5,267 nucleotides of DNA from contig JAGBFE010000351.1 of the NCBI GenBank assembly GCA_018109965.1, forward strand, positions 1-5,267. The letters run 5' to 3'. The position numbers and the translations under genes were made by a program. The DNA comes from Oscillospiraceae bacterium (GTDB taxonomy: Bacteria; Bacillota_A; Clostridia; Oscillospirales; Ruminococcaceae). The notes under the pieces are model-generated. The model did not search any database. It had not been told where the DNA came from and saw only the letters and a list, made by a program, of their open reading frames with translations. Numbering within the stretch: position 1 is the first letter of the stretch; each line of letters begins with the position of its first letter. Below are positions 1 through 5,267 of the stretch, piece by piece.

Positions 1-52
1 CGTACATTTTGTGAAAAAATTTTAGCCAAAATGTTAAACCTTTCCTATTTAA

Positions 53-81
53 TTGATTTTTAACGGGATAATATGTATAAT
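53..81 (+). promoter_or_regulatory. Sigma-A promoter for the rpe/Rnf-like operon
   Basis: A -35 box TTGATT (53-58) is separated by exactly 17 bases from a perfect -10 box TATAAT (76-81). The region is strongly AT-rich. Transcription would start near 88, giving a leader of about 110 bases before the rpe start at 202. Both hexamers and the spacing fit a vegetative sigma-A promoter. It is the only strong promoter seen upstream of the five-gene run, so it probably drives the whole unit. Nothing else interpretable is visible in positions 1-52, and no end of an upstream gene can be recognised there. Confidence 0.75.
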
Positions 82-92
82 AAAATATTATA

Positions 93-160
93 GTATGGGT
101 TAATGTGCCCATACGCCGCAAACAGTCTGTACAGACGGACAAAATGCGGCTGTAACACAG
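93..160 (+). promoter_or_regulatory. Structured 5' leader of the rpe operon (consecutive hairpins)
   Basis: Directly after the predicted transcription start there are stacked inverted repeats. The first is GTATGGG (93-99) pairing with CCCATAC (108-114), 7 bp with an 8-base loop. Immediately next is GCCGCA (115-120) pairing with TGCGGC (145-150). This encloses the perfect 12-base palindrome GTCTGTACAGAC (125-136), which can form an inner 4-bp stem with a GTAC loop. A minor CTGT/ACAG stem (150-153/157-160) shares base 150 with the previous stem. No U-tract follows, so this is not a simple terminator. I do not recognise a known riboswitch class. It could be a regulatory RNA, an operator (the palindrome) or an mRNA-stabilising structure. 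The repeats are seen directly; the function is inferred. Confidence 0.5.
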
Positions 161-201
161 ATTTGAACAATGATTTTTACATAGAAGAAAGAGGTAACAA
201 A

Positions 202-846
202 ATGACAAAGGTATCACCTTCAATTCTTTCGGCAGACTTTGCAAACCTGGAGCGTGACTGCAAAAAGGTTATGGAAAACGGTGCGGATATGCTGCACATT
301 GACGTTATGGACGGCGTTTTTGTGCCAAACATTTCTTACGGTATCCCTGTGGTAAAAAGTCTGCGCAAAGTTACCGATGCATTTTTTGATGTGCATCTTA
401 TGATTATAAAACCTCACCTTTATATAAAACAGTTCTGCGACGCAGGGGCTGACCTTATCTCCTTCCACATCGAAAGCGAAAGCGATGTTAAGGAAACAGT
501 TGACCTTATCAAATCCTGCGGCAAAAAAGCGGGGCTGGTTATCAAGCCTGCAACACCTGCCGAAGCAGTATTTCCGTATCTTGACGATCTGGACCTTGTG
601 CTTGTTATGAGCGTGGAGCCTGGTTTTGGCGGTCAGGGTTTTATGGAAAACGCACCGGAAAAGCTCAAAGCTATCAGTGACGAGGCAAAACGCCGCGGCA
701 AAGAACTTTATATCGAGGTTGACGGCGGCATAAACGAAACAACAGGCAGACTGTGTGCTGAGCACGGCGCAAACCTTTTGGTTGCAGGCAGCTATGTTTT
801 TGGCGCACAGGATGTAAAAAAGGCAATTGACAGCCTTAAAATTTAA
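202..846 (+). CDS. rpe: Ribulose-phosphate 3-epimerase
   Basis: This cytosolic enzyme interconverts D-ribulose 5-phosphate and D-xylulose 5-phosphate in the pentose phosphate pathway. The 214-residue product is of typical length and forms one TIM barrel. Family motifs appear in order: SILSADFANL (7-16), LHIDVMDGVFVPN (31-43), DVHLMI (63-68), FHIE (88-91), MSVEPGFGGQGF (136-147) and EVDGGI (172-177). The expected metal ligands are present (His32, Asp34, His65, Asp174), with Asp34 and Asp174 as the acid/base pair. The phosphate-binding loop is VEPGFGGQ. The start at 202 is chosen because AAAGAGG (188-194) lies 7 bases upstream and the protein then begins MTKVSPSILSAD as in homologues. The frame stays open back to 103, but that ATG lies in a hairpin loop without a ribosome binding site. 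It is the first gene of the unit, 20 bases before the RnfD-like gene. Confidence 0.97.
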   Translation: MTKVSPSILSADFANLERDCKKVMENGADMLHIDVMDGVFVPNISYGIPVVKSLRKVTDAFFDVHLMIIKPHLYIKQFCDAGADLISFHIESESDVKETVDLIKSCGKKAGLVIKPATPAEAVFPYLDDLDLVLVMSVEPGFGGQGFMENAPEKLKAISDEAKRRGKELYIEVDGGINETTGRLCAEHGANLLVAGSYVFGAQDVKKAIDSLKI

Positions 847-866
847 AAGAAACCGAGAGATTTTTT

Positions 867-2048
867 ATGACTGATATTAAAAGAAAAAATCACGACAAAT
901 ATATGCTGATTGCAGTTGTGCCGCTGCTTTTGTGCGGTGCGGTACTGTATGGCCCAAGGGTGCTGCTGCTTAATGCAGTTGCGGTTATCACCGCAAGAAT
1001 AGTGGATGTTATTGTATCCATGGTGCGTCATCAGGAGTTTGACGGGCACGACAATTCCAGCATACTTGCAGCAATCATCTTTTGCCTTATGCTGCCGGTC
1101 AACATCCCTATATATGTGGTTGCGGCATCAGTATTTCTGACAATACTGGTGGGCAAGCATCTGTTTGGCGGCAAGGATGTTTATCCTTTCAACCTTGCGG
1201 CGCTGGCAATGTGCTGCGCGGCAGTTAACTGGCCTGACGCAGTTTTCAGTGCGGTAAAACCATTTACAAAGGTGGATTTGCTCACAGGCAAAACCGCATT
1301 TGCAACAGCATCAAATGCAAGTCTGCTCAAGGACGGCGCAATACCTGCATATGATACATTCCAGCTGCTGCTGGGCAACTATCCTGCATCAATGGGTGCT
1401 GACTTTGTAATTGTAATTATTGCAATAGGTATATTCCTGCTTATCAAAAAGCGCATCACCTGGCATATCCCTGTTACATTCCTGGCAACCTGCGCTGCAA
1501 TAGCATTTGCATTTCCGCGTATATACGGGTTTACACATTTTGACAGTCTCTTGCTGGAAATGCTCAACGGACAGGTGTTTTATATTGCACTGTTTATGCT
1601 CAGCGAACCTACCACAACACCACACACACCAAAAGCAAAATTTATTTTTGGTATTCTGTGCGGCGTTATGGGTATGCTGTTCCGCTATTTCGGCAGTTTT
1701 GAAATCGGCACCTGCTTTGCACTGCTTATTGTAAACACTCTTGAAGGCTACATCGAAAGACTGGTGGGCGGCAACAAACGTGTTAAGGTTAAAGCAAAAC
1801 CTGTGCAGACTGCGGCAGAAAACGGACAGGCAACAGAAGAAAAGACCGAAAAAGAAAATTCTTCTGTACAGGAAAAACCTGCACATACAAAACGCCGTGG
1901 CAGCACAATGGATATTATCAGCGAAGCAGAGGACAATCTGGACGATATTATCTATTCTACAAGAACCATCGATATAAACGAAGTGCTTAAACTTGAAGAA
2001 GAAAAGAAAAAACAGCAGAGAAAGGCAGGTAAAAACAATGAAAAATAA
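867..2048 (+). CDS. RnfD/NqrB-like membrane protein with long C-terminal tail
   Basis: The protein has 393 residues and belongs to the NQR2/RnfD family, whose members are flavin-carrying subunits of ion-translocating Rnf and Na+-NQR complexes in the cytoplasmic membrane. About ten hydrophobic segments lie between residues 13 and 292. Family landmarks are DNSSILAAIIFCLMLP (62-77, cf. the DGSA...LP region), KHLFGGKDVYPFNLAA (97-112, cf. GGxGxNxFNPA), FMLSEPTTTP (243-252, cf. FMxTDPxTxP) and FRYFGSFEIGTCFALLIVN (272-290). The covalent-FMN motif, usually DxxSGAT, appears as DLLTGKT (137-143), so the acceptor Thr143 and the leading Asp137 are kept but Ala is Lys. After the last helix there is a charged tail of about 95 residues (299-393): a K/E/Q-rich linker, an acidic stretch (349-360) and a Lys/Gln-rich end. 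RnfD proteins usually end soon after the last helix. The ribosome binding site is weak (GAGAG, 855-859), suggesting translation coupled to rpe. Family assignment is firm; electron-transfer activity is not. Confidence 0.85.
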   Translation: MTDIKRKNHDKYMLIAVVPLLLCGAVLYGPRVLLLNAVAVITARIVDVIVSMVRHQEFDGHDNSSILAAIIFCLMLPVNIPIYVVAASVFLTILVGKHLFGGKDVYPFNLAALAMCCAAVNWPDAVFSAVKPFTKVDLLTGKTAFATASNASLLKDGAIPAYDTFQLLLGNYPASMGADFVIVIIAIGIFLLIKKRITWHIPVTFLATCAAIAFAFPRIYGFTHFDSLLLEMLNGQVFYIALFMLSEPTTTPHTPKAKFIFGILCGVMGMLFRYFGSFEIGTCFALLIVNTLEGYIERLVGGNKRVKVKAKPVQTAAENGQATEEKTEKENSSVQEKPAHTKRRGSTMDIISEAEDNLDDIIYSTRTIDINEVLKLEEEKKKQQRKAGKNNEK

Positions 2049-2709
2049 AGACTATGCCTACCTTTTCTCCAACTGGGAGGACACAGTCAGACGCCGCAAG
2101 GTGTTTTTGTCCAACCCTGTTTTTGTAAAAGGCCTTGCCCTTGCACCGCTGGCTGTTGCGGCAACCACAGTGCAAAATGGCATACTGCTTTGCATTGCGG
2201 TAACATTTCTGCTTACACCAACCCGCGTGGTTACAAGCGTGATTACCAAAAGAATGAGTATGCCGCTCAAAACCTTTTTCTATCCTTTTATTTCAGCAGT
2301 TGTGTTTTTGTTTGTGTATTATTATATGTACAAGCTTCTCGGCGCAAGCGTGCTGATGCTGGGCGTTTATCTGCCTATTATGGTTGTTGACCCGCTCATT
2401 GTAAAAAACTTTGAAAAAACCCGTAAGGAATCGGTTTTGTATTCCATCATCAACGGTTTGAGAAATACAGCAGGCTTTATAGTTGCCTGCCTTATCATCA
2501 GCACAATAAGAGAATTCCTTGGCTACGGCAGCATACTGGGCATAAAACTTATCGGTTTTGCACCGCTGCCAATGGCACACAACACATTTGGCGGGTTCCT
2601 TATCATTGCTTTGCTCTGTGCTTTGTGGGCACAGCTGGTTAAAAACTATAAATATAAAGTAGAAGTGGAGGCTATGCACGATGAACGATATAATCGAGAT
2701 GCTGATTAG
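2038..2709 (+). CDS. RnfE/NqrD-like integral membrane protein lacking [2Fe-2S] cysteines
   Basis: The 223-residue protein belongs to the Rnf-Nqr family (RnfA/RnfE/NqrD/NqrE) and has about six membrane segments. RnfE-like order is clear: FLSNPVFVKGLALAPLAVAA (23-42, cf. NPVxVQLLGLCPLLAVT in RnfE), YLPIMVVDPLIV (111-122, cf. FIPLIVVNCxI), SIINGLRNTAGF (136-147, cf. SxxDGLGMGLGF) and IREFLGYGSILG (157-168, cf. IRELLGxGT). The two cysteines that in characterised homologues bind half of an intramembrane [2Fe-2S] cluster are Ala36 and Pro119 here. The remaining cysteines (52, 151, 194) are not at ligand positions. The start at 2038 overlaps the end of the RnfD-like gene by 11 bases, with an AGGCAGG ribosome binding site at 2023-2029. 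An upstream in-frame start at 1993 would add only a Lys/Arg-rich stretch and is disfavoured. Assignment to E rather than A rests on motifs and gene order. Confidence 0.83.
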   Translation: MKNKDYAYLFSNWEDTVRRRKVFLSNPVFVKGLALAPLAVAATTVQNGILLCIAVTFLLTPTRVVTSVITKRMSMPLKTFFYPFISAVVFLFVYYYMYKLLGASVLMLGVYLPIMVVDPLIVKNFEKTRKESVLYSIINGLRNTAGFIVACLIISTIREFLGYGSILGIKLIGFAPLPMAHNTFGGFLIIALLCALWAQLVKNYKYKVEVEAMHDERYNRDAD

Positions 2710-3298
2710 TTATTTTGGCCTTGCACTTGTGGCAGCGGGGGCACAGAATGCGGTGTTCACCCGTGCACTTGGCATCAGCAGCGGTCTGCGAATGCTTCAC
2801 GACTCCAAAAAAAGCACAGGTTATTTCTGTGCGGCACTCACAGTGTTTCAGCTTATGTCGGTGGTGATAGTTTATTTTGCACTGCCGCTGGTTGATGTGC
2901 TTGGCTTTGGTCAGTACCGCCGTTTTGTGCTGCCTGCAATTGTTGTTGCAGCCTGCACAGTAAGCTATGTTGTAATCATTGTACTGCTCAGTATGATTAT
3001 GGGGGATAAATTCAAGGATGTTGTCCGCTCGGTAACAAGCGCCAGCATCAACAGTGCAATTGTTGGCACAGTTATCCTCACAGTTTATCAGGGCCTGGAT
3101 TTTGGCGAAAGTATTGCTTTTGCCCTGGGCAGCAGCGTTGGTTATTTTCTGGCCATCATCCTTATCAGTGAGGGCGAGCGCAAAATCGTACACGACAGAG
3201 TGCCCGAGGCTTTCCGCGGATTGCCAATCACTCTTATCTACATTTCAATCCTGGCACTTGGCATCTACGGCCTTATCGGCCATATGATTGCGTTCTGA
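2681..3298 (+). CDS. RnfA/NqrE-like integral membrane protein lacking [2Fe-2S] cysteines
   Basis: The 205-residue protein is a second Rnf-Nqr family member with about six membrane segments, close to the usual RnfA length. RnfA-like landmarks are QNAVFTRALGISSGL (22-36, cf. NNFVLxxFLGICPFLG), SASINSAIVGTVIL (120-133, cf. TTNCAVLGVAL) and EGERKIVHDRVPEAFRGLPI (164-183, cf. RERLELxDVPxxFRGxPI). The ligand cysteines of the GICP and TNC motifs are Ser33 and Ser125. Cys50 and Cys92 lie elsewhere. The start at 2681 overlaps the RnfE-like gene by 29 bases. A GTGGAG ribosome binding site (2665-2670) sits 10 bases upstream, so translation is probably coupled. Known Rnf pairs RnfA and RnfE as a pseudosymmetric heterodimer of opposite topology, and this pair likely does the same (inference). 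No rnfB follows, unlike canonical operons. Confidence 0.83.
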   Translation: MNDIIEMLISYFGLALVAAGAQNAVFTRALGISSGLRMLHDSKKSTGYFCAALTVFQLMSVVIVYFALPLVDVLGFGQYRRFVLPAIVVAACTVSYVVIIVLLSMIMGDKFKDVVRSVTSASINSAIVGTVILTVYQGLDFGESIAFALGSSVGYFLAIILISEGERKIVHDRVPEAFRGLPITLIYISILALGIYGLIGHMIAF

Positions 3299-3316
3299 TA
3301 AACGCAAAAACTTATC

Positions 3317-3322
3317 GGGAGG
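3317..3322 (+). promoter_or_regulatory. Strong ribosome binding site fixing the start at 3330
   Basis: GGGAGG lies 7 bases before ATG 3330. It is the best Shine-Dalgarno sequence within the operon. It decides between this start and the in-frame ATG at 3288, which lies inside the preceding gene with no such site. Confidence 0.75.
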
Positions 3323-3329
3323 TATTTTT

Positions 3330-4445
3330 ATGGGAAACAGACCTGTAAAAATAAAACGAAACACCAGCATTTCCGGCAAAAAATACAGCCGCAAGCGCAC
3401 GGCAAAAAAGGTGGTCAGCATCATTTTTGCTCTTGCAGCACTGCTTGCTCTGGGGTTTTTCGGCGCACCTGCAGTGGTGGAAATGCTTAACAATATGGGG
3501 GAAAAGCAGCAGCACGTTATCAGTGAGCCACCTGCCGAGCCTACACCTACACCGGGTGAAACTGTGGAGCCAACCACCAATCCCGGCGATGTGGAAAATG
3601 ACATAGTGGAAAAAACAAATATCTGCAGTATGGTTGATGTGTACAGCCTGACAAACGAAACTGCCATCACACAGCAGGCAGCGGCACTGAAGGAAAAAGG
3701 CGTAAGCTATGCTGTTGTTACCCTTAAAAATGCTGACGGCCTTATCCACTATGACAGCAAAACCGCAATCGGCTCCCAGGCAAAACACAGCCAGCAGATT
3801 GATGTGGCAAAGGTTGTGGAAATTTTTGGTCAGAACGACATCACCGTTGTGGCAGAAATATATACCTTCAAAGACAAAACCGCACCTAATATTGACCGCT
3901 CAACAGCAGTTAAATATACAGGCACCGATATGAACTGGTGGGACAGCTCCAAAGAACTGGGCGGCAAACCGTGGGCAAACCCTGCAAGCAGCACAATGCA
4001 GCAGTACATTGCCGACCTTGTGCAGGAAATCAAAACACAGTTTGGCATCAAAAACTTTATTTTCAGCGGTGTTCAGCTGCCTACAGGCTACAGCCTTGAC
4101 AAACGTGACTTCGGTGTGAGCGAAAGCGCACTGCAGGCACAGCTGCAGGGCTTTATTGACACAATGGAAAACAAGGTTGCTGCCTTTGGCGGCGATGCAT
4201 TATTTGCCTTTGATTTGGCAGCAGTCAACGGCGGCGATGTGGCAAAATACATTGTTGCACCACAGCGACTTGGCGCTGCAAATATGCTGCTTGAGGGCAC
4301 AGCGGAAGATTTTGCCGCAGCTGACCTTGCAGCAATCAGCGAAAAACTGAAAAATGACTATTCTGTTGAAATGCTTATCTACCGCAGCACAGAGGGCAGT
4401 GTGGACAATCCGGTACCCCGCGGCGACGATTATTTTGTGCAATAG
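3330..4445 (+). CDS. Membrane-anchored glycoside-hydrolase-like (DUF4015-type) protein
   Basis: The 371-residue protein has a very basic N-terminus (1-27), one hydrophobic segment (28-50) that likely anchors it with its C-terminus outside, and a Pro/Thr/Glu-rich linker (66-86, including PTPTPG). An extracellular alpha/beta domain follows from about 98. The pattern resembles the putative glycosyl hydrolase family DUF4015 (PF13200, from memory): VSYAVVTLKNADGLIHYDS (125-143), DITVVAEIYTFKDK (170-183), WWDSSKELGGKPWANP (203-218), a helix with Tyr226, and IKNFIFSGVQLP (240-251). Typical members have DEIQFDYxRFP at the last site; here the acidic residues are missing (FSGVQLP, 245-251), so hydrolytic activity is doubtful. 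It is the last gene, 31 bases after the RnfA-like gene. It may bind cell-wall or surface glycans or scaffold the membrane proteins (inference). The membrane anchor is clear; the fold assignment is moderate. Confidence 0.62.
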   Translation: MGNRPVKIKRNTSISGKKYSRKRTAKKVVSIIFALAALLALGFFGAPAVVEMLNNMGEKQQHVISEPPAEPTPTPGETVEPTTNPGDVENDIVEKTNICSMVDVYSLTNETAITQQAAALKEKGVSYAVVTLKNADGLIHYDSKTAIGSQAKHSQQIDVAKVVEIFGQNDITVVAEIYTFKDKTAPNIDRSTAVKYTGTDMNWWDSSKELGGKPWANPASSTMQQYIADLVQEIKTQFGIKNFIFSGVQLPTGYSLDKRDFGVSESALQAQLQGFIDTMENKVAAFGGDALFAFDLAAVNGGDVAKYIVAPQRLGAANMLLEGTAEDFAAADLAAISEKLKNDYSVEMLIYRSTEGSVDNPVPRGDDYFVQ

Positions 4446-4486
4446 GCAGAATAACAAAAAATGTCGGTTTTAAGCTGAAAAACATA

Positions 4487-4514
4487 TTGACTAAATATTA
4501 TTTTGTGATAAAAT
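4487..4514 (+). promoter_or_regulatory. Promoter-like element just upstream of the terminator
   Basis: TTGACT (4487-4492) is followed after 16 bases by TAAAAT (4509-4514), which is preceded by TGA (4506-4508), an extended -10 arrangement. Transcription would start near 4521, only 16 bases before the terminator stem. It therefore yields a roughly 48-base RNA unless the terminator is read through into pyrC. AT-rich sequence makes chance matches common, so this is a candidate only. Confidence 0.4.
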
Positions 4515-4536
4515 AAACTGAACGTCACAAAGACAC

Positions 4537-4568
4537 AAAAAGCGTACCAAAACCGGTACGCTTTTTTT
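4537..4568 (+). terminator. Intrinsic terminator closing the rpe/Rnf-like operon
   Basis: The GC-containing stem GCGTACC (4542-4548) pairs perfectly with GGTACGC (4555-4561). It extends by five A-T pairs (4537-4541 with 4562-4566) around a 6-base loop AAAACC, and a run of seven T follows (4562-4568). This is a textbook Rho-independent terminator, 91 bases after the stop at 4445. On the opposite strand the structure is followed by five T, so it could also work in the other direction. Confidence 0.92.
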
Positions 4569-4609
4569 AAGAAAAAACTGAAAAATATAAAAAAATATGT
4601 GTTTGCATC

Positions 4610-4638
4610 TTGGATATATTATAAAAATAATGTATAAT
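4610..4638 (+). promoter_or_regulatory. Sigma-A promoter for pyrC
   Basis: TTGGAT (4610-4615) and a perfect TATAAT (4633-4638) are 17 bases apart. The predicted transcription start is near 4645, giving a leader of about 57 bases. It lies directly after the terminator and has an AT-rich upstream region (4569-4600) that could act as an UP-like element. Confidence 0.72.
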
Positions 4639-4657
4639 ATATTGAGAACGCATAAAA

Positions 4658-4675
4658 ACGGCACCTGTGTGCCGT
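4658..4675 (+). promoter_or_regulatory. Hairpin in the pyrC leader
   Basis: ACGGCAC (4658-4664) pairs perfectly with GTGCCGT (4669-4675) around a CTGT tetraloop. It lies about 13 bases after the predicted transcription start and 15 bases before the AGGAG site. There is no U-tract, so it is not a terminator, and no PyrR-type binding loop is evident. It may stabilise the 5' end or affect ribosome access. Confidence 0.5.
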
Positions 4676-4701
4676 ATAGCAATAAACTAAAGGAGAAAAC
4701 T

Positions 4702-5267
4702 ATGCTGAACGTATTGATTAAGAACGCTAAAGTGTACCACGAAAATACATTGAAGCAAGCTGATATGTTGGTTTTAAACGGCACAGTTTCTTCTGTTGGT
4801 GCTGATATTGCTGCCTCTGAAAATGTTCCTGTTGTTGACGCACAGGATTTGTTTATATTGCCGGGTTTCGCAGATGTACATGTGCATTTGCGTGAGCCTG
4901 GTTTTTTTTATAAGGAAACCATTGCAACAGGCACACAGGCAGCAGCAAAAGGCGGTTTTACACTTGTGTGCAGTATGCCAAACCTGAACCCTGTGCCTGA
5001 CAGTGCAGAAAATATGGCACTTCAGCAGGAAATTATTGACAGGGATGCTGTTATCAGGGTGTTGCCTTATGCTTCCATCACCAAAGGGGAAAAAGGCGCA
5101 GAACTTGTAAACTTCCGAGAACTTTATGATAAATGCTTTGCGTTTTCCGATGACGGCAAAGGCGTGCAGATCGATGCAATGATGCTGGCTGCAATGGAAA
5201 AGGCAAAGGCTTTGGGCAAACCGATTGTTGCCCACTGCGAAGATGAAAGCCTGCTGTTTGGCGGCTA
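4702..5267 (+). CDS. pyrC: Dihydroorotase, class I (partial, runs off right edge)
   Basis: This zinc amidohydrolase cyclises N-carbamoyl-L-aspartate to dihydroorotate, the third step of pyrimidine synthesis. The first 188 codons are present, of an expected total of about 430, and the reading frame is open at the window end. Visible motifs are LPGFADVHVHLREPG (53-67) with zinc ligands His60 and His62 and substrate-binding Arg64; KETIATGTQAAAKGGFT (71-87); SMPNLNPVPD (91-100), with the substrate-binding Asn94; FSDDGKG (148-154), with Asp151 bridging the metals in Bacillus-type enzymes; and IVAHCED (175-181), with His178. This pattern indicates the class I (Bacillus-like) enzyme, not the E. coli class II type. 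The start at 4702 has AAAGGAG (4689-4695) 6 bases upstream and is preceded by its own promoter, so it is a separate transcription unit from the Rnf-like operon. Other pyr genes may follow outside the window. Confidence 0.95.
   Translation, partial: MLNVLIKNAKVYHENTLKQADMLVLNGTVSSVGADIAASENVPVVDAQDLFILPGFADVHVHLREPGFFYKETIATGTQAAAKGGFTLVCSMPNLNPVPDSAENMALQQEIIDRDAVIRVLPYASITKGEKGAELVNFRELYDKCFAFSDDGKGVQIDAMMLAAMEKAKALGKPIVAHCEDESLLFGG

Follow-up and report, generated by a model that had tools for sequence, protein, structure and literature searches.

Do proteins that retain the family signatures of the Rnf complex and have lost the residues that hold its electron carriers still transfer electrons? 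The question is raised by a 5,267-nucleotide stretch of DNA (contig JAGBFE010000351.1 of assembly GCA_018109965.1, positions 1 to 5,267 of the forward strand; hereafter, the window) from an Oscillospiraceae bacterium that we take to be a gut bacterium, in which three consecutive genes encode homologs of subunits D, E and A of Rnf and of Na+-NQR. Pfam-level annotation labels these genes (hereafter, the trio) as Rnf electron transport. As far as can be judged from the sequences, the trio is derived from the membrane core of Rnf/Nqr, has lost the conserved residues that bind electron carriers and is kept by purifying selection; the genes usually labeled "electron transport" probably have another role, perhaps that of a plain transporter.

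Replacement of the four cluster ligands

The trio and the codons at the ligand positions of the intramembrane [2Fe-2S] cluster are as follows:

867..2048, + strand: D-like subunit, 393 amino acids, RnfD/NqrB family (PF03116), without the canonical covalent flavin mononucleotide (FMN) motif
2038..2709, + strand: E-like subunit, 223 amino acids, RnfE/NqrD type, both ligand cysteines replaced
2681..3298, + strand: A-like subunit, 205 amino acids, RnfA/NqrE type, both ligand cysteines replaced
2143..2145, + strand: codon GCA, Ala36 of the E-like protein, on Acetobacterium woodii RnfE C25 (ligand)
2392..2394, + strand: codon CCG, Pro119 of the E-like protein, on A. woodii RnfE C108 (ligand)
2777..2779, + strand: codon AGC, Ser33 of the A-like protein, on A. 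woodii RnfA C25 (ligand)
3053..3055, + strand: codon AGT, Ser125 of the A-like protein, on A. woodii RnfA C113 (ligand)

The four cluster ligands named for A. woodii are C25 and C108 of RnfE and C25 and C113 of RnfA (PMC11889175; this and the other articles below are cited for their accessible parts). The original prediction, made from the window alone, held that all four are replaced in the E-like/A-like pair. HMMER alignment to solved Rnf and Nqr chains (7zc6_E, 9eri_E and 8ahx_E for the E-like protein; 7zc6_A, 7xk3_E and 9eri_A for the A-like protein; A. woodii residue numbering is that of chain set 9eri) agrees, with the ligand columns occupied by Ala36 and Pro119 in the former and by Ser33 and Ser125 in the latter, and the predicted residues and codon positions match a direct reading of the codons. 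The objection that the prediction had raised against itself, namely that alternative cysteines fill the ligand columns, is ruled out by the alignment, in which the other cysteines of both proteins fall on no ligand position.

A survey of homologs, which had been proposed as a check, found the ligand loss to be consistent, a family trait across loci. From 1009 A-like and 150 E-like matches, the best 120 each were taken as homologous rows, the A-like set including the window. Among these best-scoring rows, with the window included, none of the 121 E-like proteins has a cysteine at position 36 (119 Ala, 2 Thr) or 119 (121 Pro); site 33 of the A-like protein is Ser in 118/120 (1 Arg, 1 gap), and site 125 is Ser in 98, Gly in 21 and Arg in one of the same 120, and never Cys. 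When deeper members were included in the search, the best 120 of 1584 E-like matches at E<=1e-10, a total from which canonical proteins were not excluded, all lacked both cysteines.

Genomic loci were examined in two sets, 41 trio loci from relatives of the nearest metagenome-assembled genome found (L001, Oscillospiraceae bacterium SIG523, genome handle G001) and 18 loci that surround D genes of a second class. All 41 loci of the first set contain E and A (the A gene of L102 is cut by a contig end) and 40 contain D (L072 ends before it); an E-like gene is present in 16 and an A-like gene in 14 of the 18 further loci. Three of 44 genomes (G082, G093, G101) were left out, their trio coordinates being those of their canonical RnfE, and the deeper E-like genes of 120 genomes that were missed by profile A1 at E<=1e-20 were sampled via the 18 loci among the matches listed. 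Over these 59 loci, neither cysteine is found in any of 57 E-like proteins, and the first cysteine is found in none of 55 A-like proteins, 20 of which keep the second. Canonical copies in loci of 30 relatives (the 30 best PF02508 loci, not a random sample) have both cysteines in 30/30 RnfE and 28/28 RnfA. Thus, ligand loss is complete in the window and amounts to at least three of the four cysteines in every locus read. A recent loss confined to one genome is ruled out, the clade being old. One E-like entry (P0243) is 386 residues long, with most of the domain internally duplicated, possibly as an assembly artefact.

Loss of the flavin site and of other Rnf subunits

The loss extends further than originally predicted: it includes the FMN site in the D subunit and, at the level of the operon, subunits B (electron input), G (shuttle) and, in this lineage, C (output). 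A strict pattern of the covalent-FMN motif matches none of 41 D-like proteins (window included) versus 17 of 23 canonical RnfD pieces, the other six of which differ slightly from the pattern; no match was found in 17 D-like proteins of the further loci, and a loose pattern matches two of the 41 (L066, L069). The D-like protein of the window retains a threonine (T143) at the aligned FMN column, outside the motif. A profile built from nine RnfG candidates, which recovered RnfG in 21/21 canonical loci outside the profile-building set, found no match in the 41 and 18 loci, and a Pfam scan of the six window proteins found no RnfB, RnfC or NqrF.

An RnfC-like gene is located directly before D in 20 deeper loci (L097, L100, L102-L104, L133-L136, L138-L147, L149; this count leaves out L150, with a canonical RnfC, and L148, with C and D without E and A) and is gone from the operon in the branch of the window. 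These proteins share with RnfC the place before D and two [4Fe-4S] motifs (20/20), and an SLBB domain was found in the three that were checked, whereas the NAD/FMN glycine loop is gone (0/20, versus 7/8 canonical proteins by regular expression, the eighth reading GMGGATFP, a near match); L133, L136 and L100 score below the NCBIfam rnfC cut-off. Loci with the order rpe - RnfC-like - D - E - A - DUF4015 (L133-L136, L138-L144, L147, L149) are basal on the tree where this operon is sampled (L100, L103). In L148 (genome G113), the arrangement is still more reduced: the stretch read contains an RnfC-like/D-like pair and no gene labeled E or A.

The window proteins belong to the Rnf/Nqr superfamily, with scores above the gathering cut-offs of PF02508 and PF03116 (88.7, 52.3 and 208.1 bits). 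All three are far below the NCBIfam cut-offs for the Rnf subunits themselves (143.3 bits against 207.05 for rnfD, 66.1 against 213.4 for rnfE, 56.1 against 229.3 for rnfA), as are D, E and A of L083. Because the cluster, the shuttle, the covalent FMN and the output are absent, it is almost certain that no canonical Rnf electron chain would run through the trio.

Conservation of the cation path and a possible transport mechanism

In A. woodii, Na+ is bound via the R67-E115 pair of RnfE together with residues near the cluster (RnfA T110, T111 and N112; RnfE N107, L103 and V106), the ion is drawn in when the cluster is reduced, and the mutations R67A, E115K, L103G, V106G and T110G abolish growth (PMC11889175). 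Three codons of the E-like gene are relevant here:

2269..2271, + strand: Lys78, on RnfE R67 (Na+-path ion pair)
2389..2391, + strand: Asp118, on RnfE N107, beside the lost ligand
2413..2415, + strand: Glu126, on RnfE E115 (Na+-path ion pair)

The ion pair is thus retained in the window as K78-E126. Among the other equivalents, RnfE L22 corresponds to L33 and V106 to V117, and RnfA T110 to S122 and N112 to N124. Over the first 41 loci, position 118 is Asp or Glu in 33, position 78 is Arg or Lys in 37 and position 126 is Glu in 33. Among all E-like proteins, 34/57 have an acid at 118, where canonical RnfE has Asn in 30/30 (N107), and this acid is present in 33/37 loci without RnfC versus 1/20 loci with it. 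The AlphaFold model of the E-like protein has a predicted local distance difference test score (pLDDT) of 77, and its best Foldseek match is A. woodii RnfE (9eri_E; template modeling (TM) score 0.76/0.86, root-mean-square deviation 2.0 A).

Given that the scaffold in the membrane is kept, as is part of the cation path, and that a new carboxylate has appeared beside a lost ligand, a redox-free ion-coupled transporter is favored. The probability that the trio is a redox-dead Rnf derivative working in this way, by the mechanism inferred here, appears evenly balanced to us, and ion-coupled transport taken by itself is rated at even or slightly below. The trio would no longer move electrons across the membrane; instead, the A/E dimer, with its half-helices and alternating access, would work as an ion-coupled transporter, and the D subunit, with its fold of the ammonium/urea-channel type, would serve it as a partner or pore. 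Comparable relationships have been pointed out for the parent complexes, the A/E half-helices having been likened to ion/solute symporters and RnfD being related to ammonium/urea transporters (PMC12174285). The K/R78-Glu126 pair and Ser122-Asn124 would serve the cation path, and the fixed Asp/Glu118 would stand where reduction of the cluster once made the negative charge that attracts Na+. The protein of the DUF4015 type encoded downstream of the trio would probably act outside the membrane, in the same envelope or glycan process. In a more specific version, which we regard as tentative and rather doubtful, a redox-driven sodium pump would have turned into a secondary transporter in which Asp/Glu118 replaces the cluster and keeps the cation site permanently "reduced", and an ion gradient would drive the alternating-access cycle and so move a solute of the DUF4015/envelope pathway.

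Several observations weigh against the transporter. The pLDDT of the E-like model drops below 50 exactly at residues 118-122; the A-like model has a pLDDT of 70, is poor at residues 1-37 and matches NqrE/RnfA with TM scores of just 0.50-0.59 (best match 8a1t_E, a modest 0.54/0.55). The A. woodii E115A mutant grew like the wild type and N107A partly recovered (PMC11889175). The window has V98 in place of RnfA E88 and S120 in place of the gating L108; over all E-like proteins, R/K78 is found in 45/57 and E126 in only 35/57, and the deeper RnfC-bearing loci mostly have Asn at 118 and an ion pair that is often broken. Nor is the association between RnfC loss and the acid at 118 independent evidence, because on the tree the acid is a single change, at a node of 34 rows (support 100/98), against two changes in RnfC adjacency; a test of the independence of the two traits gave no support, with too few pairs. 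The D-like acid aligned with the riboflavin-binding D249 of A. woodii is Asp or Glu in 38/40, and D may therefore still bind a flavin; a canonical Rnf very likely coexists with the trio in the nearest genome, which makes a joint complex conceivable (see below). Ion-coupled transport by the trio is proposed from residue conservation.

Gene neighborhoods

The window contains six genes, all on the + strand: rpe, the trio, a gene for a DUF4015-type protein and the start of a dihydroorotase gene. The two complete genes that flank the trio are:

202..846, + strand: rpe, ribulose-phosphate 3-epimerase (PF00834 / TIGR01163, above cut-off)
3330..4445, + strand: DUF4015-type putative glycosyl-hydrolase protein (PF13200, 52.9 bits, cut-off 27)

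The E gene overlaps the end of D by 11 bases and the A gene overlaps the end of E by 29 bases, coordinates that suggest a single translationally coupled unit. A strong terminator-like hairpin followed by a T run (4537-4566; fold -16.7 kcal/mol) lies between the DUF4015 and dihydroorotase genes, and the transcription unit therefore probably ends after the former.

The order rpe-(RnfC-like)-D-E-A-DUF4015 recurs across the trio loci. An rpe-like gene is located upstream in 33/41 loci and adjoins D in 28 of these, and a gene of the same DUF4015 sequence cluster is found at +1 in 26/41 (PF13200 itself was verified in five of the relatives). Among the further 18 loci, rpe is present in 16, DUF4015 is the last gene in 13 and the complete order with the RnfC-like gene is found in 13. 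Missing neighbors are partly due to contig ends (L072, L102, L137, L145); L094 and L096, among others, have unrelated genes downstream of the trio. In four loci (L097, L099, L100, L102), a divergently oriented gene, which presumably encodes a MecA-like adaptor, is located between rpe and the C/D genes.

The DUF4015-type protein has a basic N-terminus with a single hydrophobic N-terminal segment, and it has conserved acids and aromatics; a literature search for clues to the substrate from DUF4015 found one paper, with mention of a domain fusion. In the clade of the window (window, L001, L066-L071, L073-L079), the D-like protein carries a charged cytosolic C-terminal tail, of about 90 residues in the window, with a conserved motif, roughly AED.xD.V.YSTRTI.I.E.LK, that is not found in the tails of six other trio rows compared. 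This motif may be a partner-binding site.

These neighborhoods also fit an alternative in which the trio would be a redox-inert membrane platform, that is, an anchor, assembly or signaling module for the DUF4015-type protein that carries no solute or ion. The status of this protein as the commonest downstream neighbor, its conserved residues and the cytosolic motif of the D tail are all in line with a platform. However, 15 of the 41 loci have no DUF4015 neighbor (for example, L080-L083 and L091-L096; in at least L102 and some others, owing to a contig end or gene calling), and conservation falls inside the E-like protein, where P61, R63, K78, D118 and E126 are invariant in 60 rows. We therefore consider a platform unlikely, if still worth weighing against the ion-coupled transporter.

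Other cofactors and the canonical Rnf complex

Outside the ligand columns, the clade of the window has three almost invariant cysteines (C50 and C92 of the A-like protein in 119/120 each and C151 of the E-like protein in 121/121 of the best-scoring rows listed), which may form a clade-specific metal or disulfide site. Electrons could then be carried by other cofactors, namely a riboflavin in D, with the acid noted above, and a metal or cluster site relocated to A50, A92 and E151; the two [4Fe-4S] motifs retained by the RnfC-bearing relatives and the presence of an ApbE gene in the nearest genome, G001, can be counted on the same side. In the wider family, however, the three positions are Cys in only 23/41, 16/41 and 16/41, the operon lacks RnfB and RnfG genes, the RnfC-like proteins lack the glycine loop, and in G001 ApbE and the trio lie on different contigs, so that ApbE may serve the canonical Rnf. 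Electron transfer by this route appears improbable.

Canonical Rnf genes are common in the related genomes. Among 120 relatives, PF02508 genes are found in 110 and RnfC_N is matched in 106; many carry four PF02508 genes, the canonical two plus another two. In G001, there are one PF03116 and two PF02508 genes in addition to ApbE; RnfC_N (PF13375) gave no match in this incomplete draft, but this profile failed to recover the RnfC-like gene of G017 (L149) as well. On contig C18 of G001 (L159, 1-684), a 227-residue RnfB frame (88.6 bits against the NCBIfam cut-off of 68.7) is cut off at the contig start, which makes it very likely that a canonical rnf operon was lost from the assembly; G001 thus gives no evidence for a trio-only organism.

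The trio might swap into, or dock on, the canonical Rnf that the cell also has and act there as a core of an alternative, uncoupled or regulatory kind, a proposal that draws on the frequent co-occurrence of both pairs and on the RnfB of G001. Three RnfA residues that reportedly contact the cluster of RnfB, namely K32, R154 and E158, are all replaced in the window (H40, E166, V170). Moreover, G059 and G068, both drafts whose completeness is not established, have the trio, with two PF02508 and one PF03116 gene each, and showed no RnfC_N match and no RnfB above cut-off; FMN_bind was not matched in G059 and gave one 160-residue frame in G068. A joint complex is, in our estimate, quite improbable.

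Phylogeny and selection

In a tree of concatenated E and A sequences from which the ligand columns were removed, the 41 trio rows group together, apart from nine canonical rows, as a single clade (support 100/100; L102, in which A is cut off, was left out). A wider tree separates the E-like clade from NqrD (Shimodaira-Hasegawa-like approximate likelihood ratio test support 99), and the branching point of this clade is unsure owing to long branches. A pre-cluster origin, in which the trio never had the cluster, is disfavored, given that the paralogs RnfE and RnfA carry homologous cysteines and that 20/55 A-like proteins keep the second one. The latter residue changed nine times on the tree, as expected for a residue that has lost its purpose, and this lability, together with its retention in some loci, shows that the ligands were lost stepwise.

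The ratios of nonsynonymous to synonymous substitution rates (dN/dS) for the window against L001 (NG86/YN00) are 0.145/0.099 for D, 0.105/0.079 for E and 0.068/0.071 for A, similar to those of the housekeeping neighbor rpe (0.112/0.107), and 0.159/0.124 for the DUF4015 gene; all these values are rough because dS is 0.6 to 1.3. For the more distant pair L080/L083, dN/dS is 0.35-0.46 (NG86). The original interpretation of a coordinated loss in intact genes under selection, not decay, is upheld by frames that are open, overlapping and conserved across the clade. That the trio consists of decaying remnants of an Rnf operon, as the disappearance of the known redox sites might suggest, is next to impossible in view of the open frames, the gene overlaps, the conserved gene order, the dN/dS of about 0.07-0.15 and the membership of a single old clade, with 150 E-like proteins, or 1584 under the inclusive count given above.

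Comparison with known systems and implications

With the Rnf complex (RnfABCDGE) of A. woodii and Clostridium tetanomorphum, the trio has in common the families PF03116 and PF02508, the D...E-A order, the predicted fold of E, the R67-E115 pair and RnfA N112; it differs in the absence of the [2Fe-2S] cysteines, the covalent-FMN motif, subunits G and B in the operon and, in this lineage, C. The D, E and A subunits are also homologous to NqrB, NqrD and NqrE of Na+-NQR, which, unlike the trio, keeps its cluster and FMNs (PMC12174285). For Nqr itself, an origin by duplication of an rnf operon and loss of rnfB has been proposed (PMC4014512), which provides a precedent for rewiring after subunit loss. 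Two-gene Nqr/Rnf-like systems are likewise reduced, and their NqrB/RnfD-like subunit also lacks the flavinylation threonine; unlike in the trio, a single protein combines the NqrB/RnfD domain with an NAD-binding domain and has an FMN-bind protein as its partner, no RnfA/E pair is mentioned in the accessible parts of the articles, and the systems are still proposed to transfer electrons (PMC8238504, PMC11334425). In the open-access literature, which was the scope of the search, no description of the cluster-free trio as such was found.

Faecalibacterium belongs to the same bacterial order as the relatives of the window. In Faecalibacterium duncaniae A2-165, an rnfDEA set (CG447_09840-830) and a separate rnfCDGEAB set are described as two putative rnf operons, both assigned to an NADH:ferredoxin oxidoreductase (PMC10781979, the one article with the name rnfDEA in the open-access literature searched). 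The former has the same three genes in the same order as the trio, and we infer that it belongs to this family. If the trio cannot carry electrons, the bioenergetic maps that count rnfDEA of this major butyrate producer (PMC10781979) would need correcting. The trio would also offer a natural cluster-free Rnf A/E dimer, in which the dispute over whether Na+ takes a route via A/E (PMC11889175) or via NqrB/RnfD (a pathway discussed in PMC12174285) would become testable, as would ion movement by the A/E fold without redox chemistry.

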